A model generated the notes under the pieces. It saw only the letters and a list, made by a program, of their open reading frames with translations. It made no database searches and was not told the origin of the DNA. The position numbers and the translations under genes were made by a program. A DNA stretch of 64,000 bases from positions 186,001 through 250,000 of the forward strand of contig JAQGDQ010000126.1 in the NCBI GenBank assembly GCA_030141605.1, read 5' to 3'. The DNA comes from Tubiluchus corallicola (lineage: Eukaryota > Priapulida > Priapulimorpha > Priapulimorphida > Tubiluchidae). Below, piece after piece: positions 28,783 to 43,100 of this stretch (within the stretch, counting starts at the first letter, position 1; each line of letters begins with the position of its first letter).

Positions 28783-30798
28783 AATCAGGGCAATGTTGGC
28801 CAGTTGAAGGCAATGTTGACCACCAGATAGAGTAATGTCGGGAGATAGAGTAATGTAACGGCGTGTTTTGACACATTCTAAGCACTTGGTGAATATTTTT
28901 CAAGTCTTACTATTGGAAAAATCTCATCATTACAGAAAGCTTGTTCATACTGTGACACTCAGGGCGACTCTCAGACTAAACGTATCGCAAAATGACTCAA
29001 GTCAAAGTATTGTTGCTTCTCATATGCCGACATACTTTATTTTCACCAAATCGTGACAAACGTCAAACATGAAAAAAATTTTGGCGCCAAAACAATATTG
29101 TCGTCTTTAAAAAGTTTTGAACAAAATTCATTCATCGAAACAATATATGCCTAGTTCATTTACAGCTTCTTGCTTTAAAACCGATGCTGTTGTAGGTTTT
29201 TCTTAGATGAGATGAACATCATACAGGGCAAGCTTGTTAGATTTTGTGATGAACTTTTTTCTGGTCTTCTTGCACATTTTTTGTGTTGATTTTCCACCTT
29301 CTTGGTGAAGTCTGTGAAATTTATTTCTCGAGGACCTGCTGGATGCGAACAACCAGGCGCAGCAGCAGATTTTGATGTCACGTGATGGTTATTGGCAGGA
29401 GCATAATGAGCAGAAGTGCTTGGTTGTGGATTATCATGTTGCATATCAACAGCCGCATTATCTTCAACGTGTACAAGGCTCATATCTTGGACACCTACAG
29501 CGTAGCAGTCGCCCGTGATTTCAGCTGAAGTGCTACATTAGGTAATAGTCTCTTGATATTTCTCACCTAGTAAACCTTTAAAGTGCAGATATCGAACGAA
29601 ATTGCAACCCCATTCAGTAACAAGTTCACCTTTAACCCAACTTGTTCCTGTAAATCATTGAAAATGTTGCCCTTGAAAATGATGAGATGTGGAGCAGTCA
29701 TCCCAACTGCACTGATAGCACTGAGGAGAGTTGTAGTTTCACCTTTCTCGCATCCAGTCAGATTACAAACCTGACCCTTCACTTCAGTAGATTCAAAAAG
29801 ATCTTGTAGACATGTTTCATCCAGATTCCAGATGAGCTTTGGTTGTCCTTTTAAGTAGTTTTCACTCATCAATTTGAATAGCCCATCAAAATGATTTTTA
29901 CCACAACATCGTTGGCTCATCCCGAAGTCAAATTTTCTGGTTTCCGGATAGCAAGCTGGGGATGACCATACATGAAAGCCTGTAACCAGTCTTATCTTGC
30001 TAACTTGGTGTTCTCTGAAAAACCTTTTTTTGTTTTTTGTTTCATCATATTGTCTAGTCGTCAAACATCCATCGGTGTCAGTCCGAATCTCTGTTTTGAT
30101 AAGTGAATTAGTAGATTCACCAGTTCAGTTTCTGCTTCCACAGTGAACAACATTTTGCACCCAGTCTTAGGTTTTAGGCTGCTGTTAGGTATGATTAGTC
30201 TCTAACCATTTGTGTTGAAAGAGGTAACTGATAAGCATGGGCAAGCGCTCTAAGAAATAACCTCTTCTGATTGCTCTTCTGATATGAAAACTCCTCTATT
30301 GCCATGACCATTCGGTTTTCATAATTTCAATAACTAAACACGAAAAATAGTGGTGATACATGCTGAAGAGTTGAGCGATGGATATTAGCCGATGGCCGAC
30401 ATTACCCCAATCTGATTTGGCTAATGTCGGCCAATGCAAATTAACTACACAGGTATACTGTATGAAATATTGCAGTATGTCTATTAAAATGCATTAAAAA
30501 CCATCTAATTCATTGTTTGAAACAGACTTTAACATCCTCAGTATAGATGATTATTCATTATAGTAGTTACCAAAAATATTGTAAAACACAAAGCCAACTA
30601 TGAAATATTGTAGTAAATCACCAAACTCTTCTCGAAATTTGTTGCTGATGTGAGTGATAGACAACTAAAACAAGGGAAACACATCTAGCTGAACAATGCT
30701 GGCTCTGCTGATTGGCTCATCACACTATAAAAATCCAAACTAGCTCATGTGCCATGTTTAGGGTCCATAGAAACTGGCTGGCCGACATTACCCCAATA
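28783..30798 (-). mobile_element. Pogo/Tigger-like DNA transposon, about 2.0 kb, defective
   Basis: Terminal inverted repeats of 21 bp (AATCAGGGCAATGTTGGCCAG at 28783-28803 and the reverse complement of 30778-30798, 16 of 21 matching) are flanked by TA on both sides, the usual pogo/Tc1 target site. Further copies of the GGCCGACATTACCCCAAT motif lie inside the right end (30394-30411, an exact 18-mer copy), with related AATGTCGG motifs inside the left end. Size and layout fit Tigger/pogo elements. The transposase on the minus strand is broken. Confidence 0.72.
29175..30200 (-). pseudogene. Pogo/Tigger-like (jerky/CENP-B type) transposase, truncated and frameshifted
   Basis: Minus strand. Upstream pieces read AETELVNLLIHLSKQRFGLT and YDWLQAFMYGHPQLAIRKPE, the CENP-B-type helix-turn-helix. 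After a frameshift, KLIWNLDETCL carries the first catalytic Asp of the DDE domain, followed by the conserved C.KGE.TT.L.A.SA.G...P..IFKG pattern (here CEKGETTTLLSAISAVGMTA). The open frame stops at 29567. The next segment (29483-29175) is the low-complexity, lysine-rich C-terminal part. The block with the second Asp and the third catalytic residue is absent between them, so the protein cannot be an active transposase. Confidence 0.8.
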
Positions 30799-35746: not shown

Positions 35747-36100
35747 TATATAATCTGTTTATCTATATCTCACATAATTTTAAATTTTAATTGGATATAC
35801 AAAGCTAACTATATTTCGACAATAACACAATGTATTAGCTACAGTCCTAAGATCTACAAGCTCTAAATGCATTTATATTCTTACTTCATTTAGGGGAAGA
35901 GATTAACTGTTCATTCTCTTTTTCCTTATATTATTATACAAGATGTTTATATGATTTGCGTGCAATTTCAAATGTTATTACTTGGAGCAACACGTGATAC
36001 AATTAATCCCGTGAAATACACAAGTCTTAATTTGCATAGAGACTTTACAAACACCCTTGTATGATTTGTTATGATAGTATGACAGCAGTGGTGTCATTTC

Positions 36101-36951
36101 CAGCGGTGTAACTAAAGGGGTGGTCCATCCCGGGCCACATTTAATTTTCCACAAAAATGATGTTTACATCGTCTCTTGCCGACAACGAAAGATAAGTAGT
36201 AATTAAATATCCTTCTAATATTTCAATATTTGCAACGTAGTTTTCTTTGCTTTTAAAGTTTTTGCACAGTACACATTTTGAGTCAACTCATGCTTGTAGC
36301 TGCAAGCTTTTCATACATTAACGCAGTTTTTAACCATGAATTAAACGCTGGCATTTGATTTTTATAACACTGATATCATTGCAATTAGTTCTATTAACGT
36401 AATAATGATTGTGATTAAGCGGCTTCTTGGCTTGCCAATGTAGTTAACGAGTTTTAGAATATCTCAATCAGAATTTGAATTTAAATATCTTCATGTTTCA
36501 ATTTAGTGTAGATCTATTTTGTGATTAATTTGTGAAACTTGTGACTTATAAAACTAATTCCCGAATACTAATCTGAACTTTGTCTTTGGAATATCTTGAC
36601 AACTTTAATCAACTGTTAATATGTTTAAAATTCCCTGCTAAACATACCGACATCTTAAAAGTCACTCCAGAATGGTTTTCAACTACCATTATAATTCTCT
36701 TTTCTACACTAACATTTGAAACACTTTGAACATTGAAACTTTTGAGTTTTGAAACAATTACGGTGAATTTCTTTCTCCACAAACTATTTTATTTATTTTT
36801 TTCAGTAGCACTTTAACATTTCATCAATTTATCTCAACAGCTTGTCACAACTGCAAGGCAACACACTAAATTTCCAACAAAAACATTTTCATCGGAGAGG
36901 CATCAAACTCAAATGTTGCCCCGGGTGCCAGAAGCTCTAGCTGCGCTATTG
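36101..36951. mobile_element. Non-autonomous hAT-like element, 851 bp
   Basis: The ends are CAGCGGTGTAACTAAAG...CCCGGGCCACATTT on the left and, on the opposite strand from the right edge, CAATAGCGCAGCTAGAG...CCCGGGGCAACATTT. They align over about 41 bp with mainly transition differences. Both begin CA, as hAT termini do. It is flanked by an exact 8-bp duplication GTCATTTC (36093-36100 and 36952-36959), the hallmark target-site length of hAT elements. No transposase frame remains inside. It ends 126 bp beyond the HENMT1 stop codon, so the HENMT1 transcript probably reads into it. Confidence 0.82.
36785..36795 (-). promoter_or_regulatory. Likely HENMT1 polyadenylation signal
   Basis: On the minus strand, AATAAATAAAATAG gives overlapping AATAAA hexamers about 285 bases after the HENMT1 stop codon. 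It is the first canonical signal I see downstream of the gene, and it lies inside the hAT-like element. The cleavage site itself is not visible from sequence. Confidence 0.45.
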
Positions 36952-37076
36952 GTCATTTCAAGATTATGATTTCATTATAATGAAAACAGAAAGAAACTTC
37001 AGCACTAAATTAATTTTTTTTAATGTAAGTATGAATACGTTGTCCTCATTAGAAATTATACTGAAATCAATGAACA

Positions 37077-37191
37077 TTATCCAGAGATGCTGCTGTCAGA
37101 GTGACTGTTGCTGAGGTCGTCTACTGATGGCACAAGTAGGCAGTTGTGGCTTTTGTTTAGCTTCCCAGCATTGTGTTCAACAATAAACTGA
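37077..37191 (-). CDS. HENMT1: HENMT1 exon 7 (terminal)
   Basis: After the acceptor TTTCTGTTTGCAG it completes a serine codon and reads SQFIVEHNAGKLNKSHNCLL, then VPSVDDLSNSHSDSSISG and TAA. It joins exon 6 in phase. The tail is serine-rich and not conserved, so identity rests on splice sites and phase. I saw no better terminal exon between 37191 and 37953. Confidence 0.75.
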
Positions 37192-40100
37192 CTGCAAACA
37201 GAAATAATCTGCGAATTATTTAGATTCTGCAGAATCATTTTGTTTTGCAATCCTTTTTTATTATTTGTTTTCCGGCTACCATGTATAACTAAAAAAAGTA
37301 TGTACAATATGGTCAATACCTTGTGTCATGGAAGCTGCTGGGTTGGTACAGAGATAATGGTTCAAACAAAGTTCTGGTGAATGTGCACCTGCAACTTAGT
37401 TATATGGGTACAGAGTCGGTATTGGTCAGTTATACAAGTATAGCTCAACTCCTCAATCAGATGAAAACGTCAAAATTACAAATAAATGGTGTTGTCACTC
37501 AGCTCCTTTTATAGTATTGAGCTAGTATGTTATGTTTTTGCATACATGGCTAAATGGCTATGTGCATATATGCATTAAGAATTCTTCGAAAAGTTGGTCT
37601 TGCTAGGTCATGTGACAGGAATGAAAATGTAAAAACTAAGTTTATGTTAATAACTGAAAAAGTGCAGCAGACTTGCAGATACCCTGCAGGAGTACCAAAG
37701 ACAATAGTGTTTAACATTCGAATTGCAAAAAAAAACAGAAGTTTTGCTTAACAGCATTTTAGTTAATAAAATGCTATGTTAGCCAAGGTAAATTACTCGT
37801 TACTATGTAAAGGAACACAGTTCTGTACCTAAAGATGAGTCCTGAAACATTAATCTACAAAATCAAGTGCCTGATTTACAGCAAAACATTAGTGAAAGTA
37901 AAAAAATTTACAAGAGAGTTTTTAGGAGAGAGTTACGAGAGAGTAAATTTACCTGAGTATCTGCACGTTGTTGTCACATAGTTCAGCGATTCTTGGAAAA
38001 GCTAAAAGTTTATATAAAGGAATGGTCACAAATTCAGTACCACTAGCATCACAATTACCAAAATCACAGCTAAGCGTTTTAGATTCAAAGGTTCCTGTAT
38101 CATCACACATTCTCTCAATTTGAAATTCACAATTGCTGCCTTGAGGTAGTTTCGCTATATCATCTTTGTCAACATTGTCACTGCAGTCCCCATCTGCTAA
38201 GTCCCCAAATGATGCAAAGTCCCTTCTAAGGATATTCGTGTAGTAAAAAATTTCATTGAGTAATTGTGAATCTTTACTGGCAGGTTTTTTCCAAGGATAT
38301 TCAACTTCAGTAACCTGGAATAAATAATGTGATCATCTGACTATTGGTTCTACATACTGTAACAGTGCATTGTAAATGTATTGTATGCAATGTAAATACA
38401 TATGTTTTAAAATGTGCAATATTTTACATGGTGTAAATTCATTCATTGTGTCAATATTGTACAGGTGGTCATTGTGTCGTAATGTTGTGTAAAGTATTTT
38501 TTGTTGGATATGTTATAGTTATTATATACAGTTGGTTGTAAAAGCTGCTATAGCTTGTGTTTTACTGTTTTCATGAAAATCAACTTAAATAAATTTTTGT
38601 CTGTCTATTTATACCTAGTCTATCAATTATGTCTATTGATTGCTAAGTTAAAAAAATGTGAATAAGTGAATGATTGAACAAACAAGTGGATAGGGTACAG
38701 AAAAAGATTACTAGTAAAAACAAATAGCTAATACAACTTTTCAAAAGCACTTTTTCAATGTAAAACTAGTTTCCAGTCTTTTTATACTTACAAGTTCATA
38801 AACAATTTGCTGTTGAGGACGATTACTCATATGTTCGTTGATTCTTGTAAACACTGCCATCTGTGAGCAACATCCAACATCTTCTGAACCAGATGGTGGC
38901 TCACCAATACCATCATATTTAACAGAGTAAGCTGGATACAAGGTAATTATTTCTTCACACCTGAAATTGCACAAGCAAGTCCAGCAATATGAAGTGCAAA
39001 TACAGCAGTCACTAGTAATAGTAGGAATCTACATGCGTATGTCTTACCAATTGACACACAGCAAAAACAGGCAAGAAGTATGCTCAAAATCTAGCTATCT
39101 TATTGGCTAAATTTGAAATGTAAACTACTGTAATTGACAGAGAGGTTAATATTACTAGGTTAATGCTTCTGTATTAAGAAAGTCAACACAGAAATTAACA
39201 CAAGATTAGCCTTTTTAATTTTATAAAGTTTTAAAAAGATTTGCAGTTATCATAATTTTTTTTAACAATGACAAATGAGACCTATTAATCAGTACTTAAT
39301 ATGCTGCACATTATACCCAACATACCATTATCAGCCAACAGTCGCACCGATCTTGGTGAAATTAACATAATGAAACACTGTGATGGCACATGCAGGTTAA
39401 TGCTGCTGAATGGTAGTTTACTAATGTGTTGTATTTTCAACCCAAGGCTGGACAAGCATCAAAAACACAACACAGCGCATTAAATTTCGAGCTCTCATTG
39501 CCAATATTATCCAATTGCGAAACAGGTCACTTAGTATAACAATAGTTATAGTTATTATAAAATATTGCTCTTGCGACTCTTTTTATTGCTCCCCAGATGA
39601 GTGCCATCTTCCTAAGGCTTGGTGTACACAATGTTTCATTAATCTTAGTTTGTTCTAGTTCAGAATAGAACATACTAAAAAGGCTAATTTTTAGCAGTGG
39701 GGTGTGCGATTGAATTTACTTACATCCCTTTCAAATGTTATGTTGTTATAATGCCTGGGCTTTGCAACGTTTGTGCAATTTTGGCACTGTGTAAATCCAG
39801 TAGTGGGTAATTTAGTGGTGTTCAATTGTGACAGCTGTGCAATTTTGGCAGAGTTCAATTTTAGCAAACTACGTAATCTAGGCAGAGCTTAATTCTAGCA
39901 AACTACGTAATTTAGGCAGAGCTCACTTCTAGTAAACTACGTAATTTAGACAGAGCTCAATTCTAGCAAACTACGTAATTTAGGCAGAGCTTAATTCTAG
40001 CAAACTGCATAATTTAGGCAGAGCTCAATTCTAGCAAACTACATAATTTAGGCAGAGCTCAATTCTAGCAAACTACGTAATTTAGGCAGAGCTCAATTCT

Positions 40101-43100
40101 AGCAAATATGTAATTTGGCAGCGCTCAATTCTGGCAGTGTACAATTTTGGCAAGCTGCACAATTCTGGCAGTGCTCAATTTTGGTAAGCTGCATAATAAT
40201 GGCCATGCTCAATTCTGGAAGGCTGTGCAAGTCTGGCAAAGCTCAATTTTGGCAACCTGTGCAATTTTAGCAGTGTTCAACTCTGACAGGCCGGACAATT
40301 TTAACATTGTTTTACAGCAAGGATATTAATTTATGCTATTTATTCTTTTATGATTCTCAGTGGTTGATTGTCTACATCATGGCCGTGTCCTTCACAGGTA
40401 TGTAGATTTCGTTTTTTTTTCAGTAAAATTATTGAAGTAAGCCTGTGTTTCCTAGTAAGAAAAGTTAGGTTACCAGAGTTAGGAGAAAAGAGAGCACACC
40501 ATACTCCCCTTTCTTAAGCCATCAACTACCCTTAGGTGATCCAGAATTCCTACATAGACTGTTGATCATGAACCAGGATTCACAGCTCTACCTCACTAAA
40601 CAATTAGTCAAAACCAAACTTTTATATTTTTTTACAATTAGGCATGTTAAAAATATGTATAATATCACCTTTATATGATAGTAAACTTCTACTACAAAAT
40701 CTCTTGGTACACAAAATATCATTATAAAATTTTGGCATATCAATTAAACACTTAATTAATCATTTAATTAACATCAATTAAAATCATTACTTTTAAGAAT
40801 ATTACACTTTTGAGATTTTGCTTTTAAGATCTCGCATTTTTAAGGTTCAGATTAATTCAGATATGAGTATATGTTGCTATGTACATTGTACAACAAAATA
40901 CAAAAATATAAAGTTATCACACTTCAACTGGCTTCCAATAAGTATGTGTACACCCATACATAGGTTGATACGTTACATAGGGGGAAGCTGTAAACATTGT
41001 AAGCTAAAACTCATGACACACTTCTAAAACAGTGCATGAAAAAAATGATACACTTGAGATCACTGTTTGCGAGGTTAAATGAATTCTCTGTGGCATATAT
41101 TAATTGAAATTTTCAATATTTAAACAGTAGTGTACTGTTACTTTCTATGACTTGTAACTTTGAATACAATTATCACCATATAGCAACTTATCCGTTTTTT
41201 GCTATCCTTTATGATTTTTGTGCTACTGATCAGCATGTTAGATACAACATAAAACACTGACAGTTAACAGAAACACTCACCAATCTTGGAACTGTGCCCT
41301 GGTCCATTCAAATTTATGATCCCAATGTCGAAAACCTCCACAATTGTCAAACAGTACATTAAATTCAGCATTAGGTGTTGTGATGATGACTAATCGAGGT
41401 TGGATGAATTCAAACACATTATGTGGGAAAATATTTAGTACGTCTGGACTGAGGTGTTCAATGCTGAAACAAGACCATACAACTGAGATTATATGAAACA
41501 CAGTTTATAATGCACAAGCTTGTCTAGAATTTATGTCAAATGACAATATCTATAATTAAATAATTATTCAAGTTTATCGTTTAATGATGGAACAAATGTA
41601 GTGAATGTTAAGAAAGGAAACTCAGTTTAGAGAAAGTCAGACTGAGCCTGGATTTCAACCAAGCACTTTTGAATTTTAAAGCATTAGACACAGTCCCTTG
41701 TTATTGTTGCAAGTCTTAATACCACACCAGGCAACACTAAATTTTCAAGTCTTACTTTATATACTAGGAAGCACCGTAATGACAAATCAAATAGATTAAA
41801 ATTGACTAAATTTTGATGACTTGCTTGTGAAGGAACCTGTAAATGGGTTTATTTTGTCATGATGTCCTTGTCATTTTCTTCATGTCATATGTTTTTGGTA
41901 CGCAAATGGCACATCAAACGAACAGTCTCAGTCTCCCATGGTTTTACAGGGAGTTTATCTTTTGATTTGGGATGTTCCGACAAAAAAAACCTCCAAGGAG
42001 AAAAATTATGCTACATGACAAGGTAGGTCTCTTTTATGAAAGCTTCCAGCATAGCCCACAAGAACAGGATAATTCCTAATTCTGTAGGCTGTTAAAGTAA
42101 CTTATATCTGTTAACAGTTAGCTTATTACCATCATTATGGGAGGAGCAGGCAAACAAAGAGCATGTAATCCAATGCTCAACATTCCCTGCTATTTGCAAG
42201 TTATTTTGAGCCTGGAACAGTGGACTGCTAATGCAAACGTCAATGATGCATTATCCAGGCTCAGTCCCCACATGTAACCTTAATTTTGTTCTCTTTAACT
42301 CAGTTAGCTTCAGCAGAAGTTTGGCATATGGTGAACTCGGTAAAAGTGCAGTAATTAAGTTATATTCTTGTATATTTTGCTTGAAATTATAATGTTCACC
42401 CTGAGGCTTCCAAGCGTTTAAATAAATTGGTTTGATGGTTAACTCAACTCAGTCAACCCTCCTTTTCATGCAGTAGCACCTGGCCAAAGAGGCTTGCAGA
42501 GCAATCGTGATCAGAGTTCTGCTGAGGCAATGAAGACAAAACTCGATACTGAGGTATCTCGGATGATTATCTACAAGATATTGAGAGCCAAAGTCTAGAA
42601 TTATATAATATGATATATAATATAATATAATTCCATCATGACGGTCAACAACTATTATCATTGCAAATAAAAATTCAAGTTTTAATGTTACAGTTACAAT
42701 AATATATGACCAGTTACAGTGGCTACAAATCCCAGTAATTGGGTGTTCCAACTTAAATAGCAAGTGTATCGACTTGACTCAAACAAGGGACAATTTAAAC
42801 ATTACAAGCAACGGCATTAAACTTGTAATACTTACCGAACAATTCGTGACACTACATGTATTTACTTTGTATGGACGATCAAACACAAGGTTTATAATTA
42901 ATAGGTTATTCATAATCAGCGTATCACAAGGTTTACTAAAAATATGGTAGTTTAAGAAAAAAGTGCTCCAACATCCTCCTTGCCCACCATAGTTAATTTG
43001 TGGCACATCATTCCAATTTTCCTTTTACAGCATCTCACTCATTTTCTTTTACCAAATACTTAAATTAGTTAAACAAAAAAGTGTCTAACATCTCCTAAGC

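Follow-up and report, generated by a model that had tools for sequence, protein, structure and literature searches.

The HENMT1 locus and the 851-bp interval beyond its stop codon

The window analysed here, a 64,000-nucleotide stretch of Tubiluchus corallicola DNA, carries on its minus strand a real HENMT1 gene, for a piRNA 2′-O-methyltransferase. The minus-strand exons, joined together, match the HEN1 methyltransferase domain, with the HENMT1 structure 4XCX at E = 1.9e-26 and further Hen1 structures also among the matches; this concatenation, from which one exon or more (about 38741-39028, GIGEPPSGSEDVGCCSQ) was missing, served for identification only. The catalytic-domain exon lies at 41281-41463 (minus strand). 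Towards the 3′ end of the gene, a coding exon at 37953-38314 (minus strand; VTEVEYPWKK...CDNNVQIL) ends at the donor CTCAG/GTAAAT and is followed in frame by the predicted last coding exon at 37077-37191 (minus strand), with the acceptor TTTCTGTTTGCAG and a TAA stop at 37077-37079. The C-terminal tail of HENMT1 is too poorly conserved for homology to prove this last exon.

At a distance of 117 nt from the stop codon lies the right-hand member of an 8-bp direct repeat. The first-pass annotation had proposed that a hAT-like element with a perfect 8-bp target duplication stands here and supplies the 3′ end of HENMT1. The duplication is as described: GTCATTTC occurs exactly at 36093-36100 and 36952-36959 (no strand assigned) and directly abuts both ends of an 851-bp interval, 36101-36951. 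We describe this interval on the plus strand, which is the orientation of its family consensus and is antisense to HENMT1. Its ends begin with CAGCGGTGTAACTA and, on the other strand, with CAATAGCGCAGCTA, forming imperfect inverted repeats; the left one (CAGCGGTGTAACTAAAGGGG...) occupies 36101-36138 on the plus strand, and the right one, read on the minus strand as CAATAGCGCAGCTAGAGCTTCTGGCACCCGGGGCAACA, occupies 36914-36951. Only 8 of their first 15 bases match, the best local alignment between the 70-bp ends was equalled by 84 of 5000 random pairs, and the inverted repeats of this copy are marginally beyond chance. Judged by the window sequence, it is the 8-bp duplication that carries the case for an insertion. 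Identical 8-mers at the same spacing are found at 6 of 63,130 window offsets.

These numbers leave some room for a reading in which 36101-36951 is not a transposon at all and its direct repeat and inverted ends are fortuitous features of an AT-rich 3′ flank; the near-chance ends and the five occurrences of GTCATTTC within the window would both suit it. We give this reading next to no probability, and it is already refuted by a search of the genome to which the window belongs (343.5 Mb, 2344 contigs). The flanks of the interval (381 bp and 453 bp) are single-copy, except for one 26-bp inverted match within the left flank itself. On unrelated contigs there are repeats that share the boundaries of the interval and form a family with it, and duplications are found at these other copies. 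Since the interval is repetitive where its surroundings are unique, the boundaries of the element are real. An allelic empty site was searched for in the same genome and was not found.

Elsewhere in the window, on the minus strand at 29175-30064, lie broken open reading frames (QPKLIWNLDETC...) that resemble a pogo/Tigger-type DDE transposase; they gave no Pfam match at E 0.01.

A dispersed family of non-coding elements

With the 851-bp sequence as query, a DNA search of the genome returned 58 matching pieces across many contigs, at 65-84% identity, self aside. A consensus built from 15 other copies, aligned together with their flanks, is about 961 bp long, and agreement among the copies falls to background outside its ends. 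Used as a query in turn, the consensus found at least 62 pieces (40 scored of 284 candidates). Searches with both the window copy and the consensus thus gave further copies, and the possibility that the interval has none in the genome is excluded. Several copies (C1924, C2067 and C1949) cover consensus positions 1-961, and their terminal bases coincide with those of the window copy. The consensus ends, CAGTGGCGTAGCTA and CAGTGGCATAGCTA, are inverted repeats matched at 13 of the first 14-15 bases; the imperfect inverted ends noted in the first reading are present in the window copy and clearer in the family.

The other copies were also searched for 8-bp duplications, as had been suggested, and they carry them in decayed form. 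In 12 other copies with two ends, the flanking 8-mers are identical at a mean of 5.67 of 8 positions, compared with 2.38 of 8 for shuffled partners; a sum as high as the observed one did not arise in any of 20,000 shuffles. The weakest duplications, in two of these copies, agree at 3/8 and 4/8; for one copy (C1776), the right end was set by eye, one base off the automatic alignment. The window copy has 84.6% ungapped identity to the consensus (K2P 0.175, or 0.152 without CpG sites). A divergence of 0.15-0.175 substitutions per site, as in the window copy, would predict about 70% duplication identity, which is close to that observed and fits true duplications that have decayed. As about 70% identity is expected from decay, the 8/8 duplication of the window copy is fortunate but unremarkable.

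Relative to the consensus, the window copy lacks positions 39-114 (76 bp), just inside its left end at about 36134-36138, together with four shorter stretches of 11-18 bp each. Its longest stop-free frame has 59 codons, that of the consensus 76; the window copy is old and non-coding. The family as a whole is non-coding and has many dispersed copies, as the MITE-like, non-autonomous class requires. A literature search with the exact end sequence gave no match, and we found no name for the family.

Six loci that shared a hit pattern (L044-L049, on the large contigs C2107, C2074, C2072, C1974, C1831 and C1752) were considered as young active copies and rejected. Each of the six stretches contains one old family copy, and their sequences agree at 100% for 3.9 kb or more, far past the element. 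They are copies of one larger duplicated unit that spread recently, or else arose in the assembly.

Superfamily assignment and known analogues

The 8-base duplications and the CAG ends suggest a hAT element, a superfamily whose short terminal inverted repeats typically begin with CAG or TAG. A search of the genome for the hAT dimerisation domain PF05699 returned many loci; among them, L028 and L039 are bounded by CAGGGGCGGAACTAG in inverted orientation, and their 8-bp duplications (AATCTTTG and CAAACGTG, respectively) are perfect. Their ends agree with those of the window family at 11-12 of 15 bases, and a fuller member of the same group (L026) encodes both DUF4371 and Dimer_Tnp_hAT. Given such ends and flawless 8-bp duplications on PF05699 elements of this genome, the interval is best read as a non-autonomous hAT-like element. 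With high confidence, we assign 36101-36951 to a family of non-autonomous hAT-like DNA transposons, of which it is an old and defective copy, and this part of the first-pass annotation stands, on the genomic copies, the family-wide decayed duplications, the inverted ends of the consensus and the similar ends of PF05699 elements.

The autonomous, hAT transposase-encoding partner that had been anticipated did not emerge: no autonomous element with the ends of the window family was found among the loci examined, and the PF05699 loci among them lack its subterminal sequence, the likeness of some of them being in the ends. It may be that elements of the L028/L039 type cross-mobilise the window family. 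P elements also generate 8-bp duplications and have ends starting with CA. With no transposase found that has the exact ends of the window family, one could thus propose that the non-autonomous element belongs to some other superfamily with 8-bp duplications, above all P. We consider this very unlikely, since the CAGTGGCGTAGCTA ends match at 11-12 of 15 bases those of elements that, in this very genome, encode the hAT dimerisation domain and have perfect 8-bp duplications.

On the hAT-like reading, the CAGTGGCGTAGCTA-type ends were most likely recognised by a hAT transposase from another locus, which excised the element and inserted it here. The insertion would have duplicated the 8-bp target GTCATTTC, the duplication itself being observed, and the copy would afterwards have decayed by substitution and deletion. 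As to an assignment to the Ac, Buster or Tip group, GTCATTTC does not fit the Buster consensus nnnTAnnn, the duplications of the other copies are decayed and the element has no transposase of its own.

A further stretch, C774:978-6763, the single inverted pair of exact ends that was examined, was considered as a possible autonomous element and rejected as an inverted duplication about an unrelated open reading frame. At this locus (L080, C774:940-6800), two exact inverted CAGTGGCGTAGCTAG ends bound 5.8 kb, the flanks are inverted repeats too, and the stretch contains a 131-aa open reading frame that looks host-gene-like, presumably resembling JIP4/SPAG9. The same hAT-type end CAGTGGCGTAGCTAG also occurs in tandem arrays, at C877:33141-33543 with a spacing of 45-49 bp and at C1838:32553-32655 with a spacing of 22 or 44 bp, an arrangement that would fit amplification of transposon ends into satellite-like repeats.

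A close likeness lies in the same genome, where five hAT elements with CAGGGGCGGAACTAG ends (L026, L027, L028, L029 and L039) share 11-12 of 15 terminal bases with the window family, and two of them (L028 and L039) the 8-bp duplications; they differ in carrying a hAT transposase domain, and their interior sequence is not shared. Among described elements, the Drosophila hAT MITEs Mar (610 bp, terminal inverted repeat CAG(G/A)GGTAGGC) and Vege (884 bp) are likewise short, AT-rich and non-coding, with short inverted ends that start with CAG in Mar, 8-bp duplications and dispersed copies (PMC3517528). They differ from the window family in sequence and host. In addition, Mar duplications fit the Buster consensus (PMC3517528), which GTCATTTC does not, and Mar, unlike the window family, has a known relic autonomous partner. 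Short copies of BuT2, of the hAT Tip group (532-927 bp), are thought to have been moved in trans; they are also short, with kept ends and 8-bp duplications, but derive from a known autonomous element, while the parent of the window family was not found (PMC3942097).

Candidate polyadenylation signals of HENMT1

The first-pass annotation had placed the first AATAAA downstream of the HENMT1 stop within the element. This position is correct: on the minus strand, the first AATAAA after the stop is at 36792-36797, inside the element, and there is none between the two. Yet an ATTAAA precedes it. Located at 37019-37024 (minus strand), 52 nt past the stop and outside the element, it is followed by the U/GU-rich TTTAGTGCTGAAGTTTCTTTCTGTTTTC, plausible as a downstream element, and is a candidate polyadenylation signal of HENMT1. 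The second candidate, 279 nt past the stop, is AATAAATAAA (36788-36797, minus strand); it comprises two AATAAA that overlap and lies within a T-rich tract of the transposon.

If the element supplies the polyadenylation site, HENMT1 transcripts would cross the 117 nt into the antisense element, with cleavage 10-30 nt downstream of AATAAATAAA (36797-36788). The doubling of the hexamer at this point, the absence of AATAAA between stop and element and the GU-rich sequence that follows (TTTGTGG, ATTGTTTC) are consistent with such an arrangement, as is the fact that AATAAA is generally the stronger hexamer. The earlier ATTAAA with its U/GU-rich stretch argues against it, and so does the composition of the region. 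AATAAA has a density of one per 627 nt on the minus strand, and the first one would fall in the interval of the element by chance in about 62% of cases; so common a hexamer carries little weight when it turns up in an AT-rich element of 851 bp. Moreover, the T-rich tract that holds AATAAATAAA varies in length and sequence between copies, and an antisense AATAAA of some kind is present in 23 of 28 other copies, as AT-rich sequence would give.

Weighing these signals, we regard polyadenylation within the element as possible but as the somewhat less likely case. It is more likely that HENMT1 transcripts end at or near the upstream ATTAAA, or that they use both signals. The role proposed for the element at the 3′ end of HENMT1 is thus only partly supported, a usable signal lying ahead of the element. 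A retrocopy of the HENMT1 3′ end was also searched for in the genome, and no second copy was found.

A bolder version would have the insertion take over termination of HENMT1, a protector of piRNAs, so that the 3′ UTR of the gene, being antisense transposon sequence, could yield piRNAs against the family and link a silencing gene to its target in a loop; we hold this to be very unlikely. The entry of transposons into last exons is a known phenomenon (PMC2911107). If HENMT1 truly ended in the element, the case would be neat but not new in kind, and would be notable only in that HENMT1 acts in transposon silencing. For the family itself, the gain is mostly one of annotation: a short and easily missed group of elements acquires a consensus, boundaries and a target duplication.
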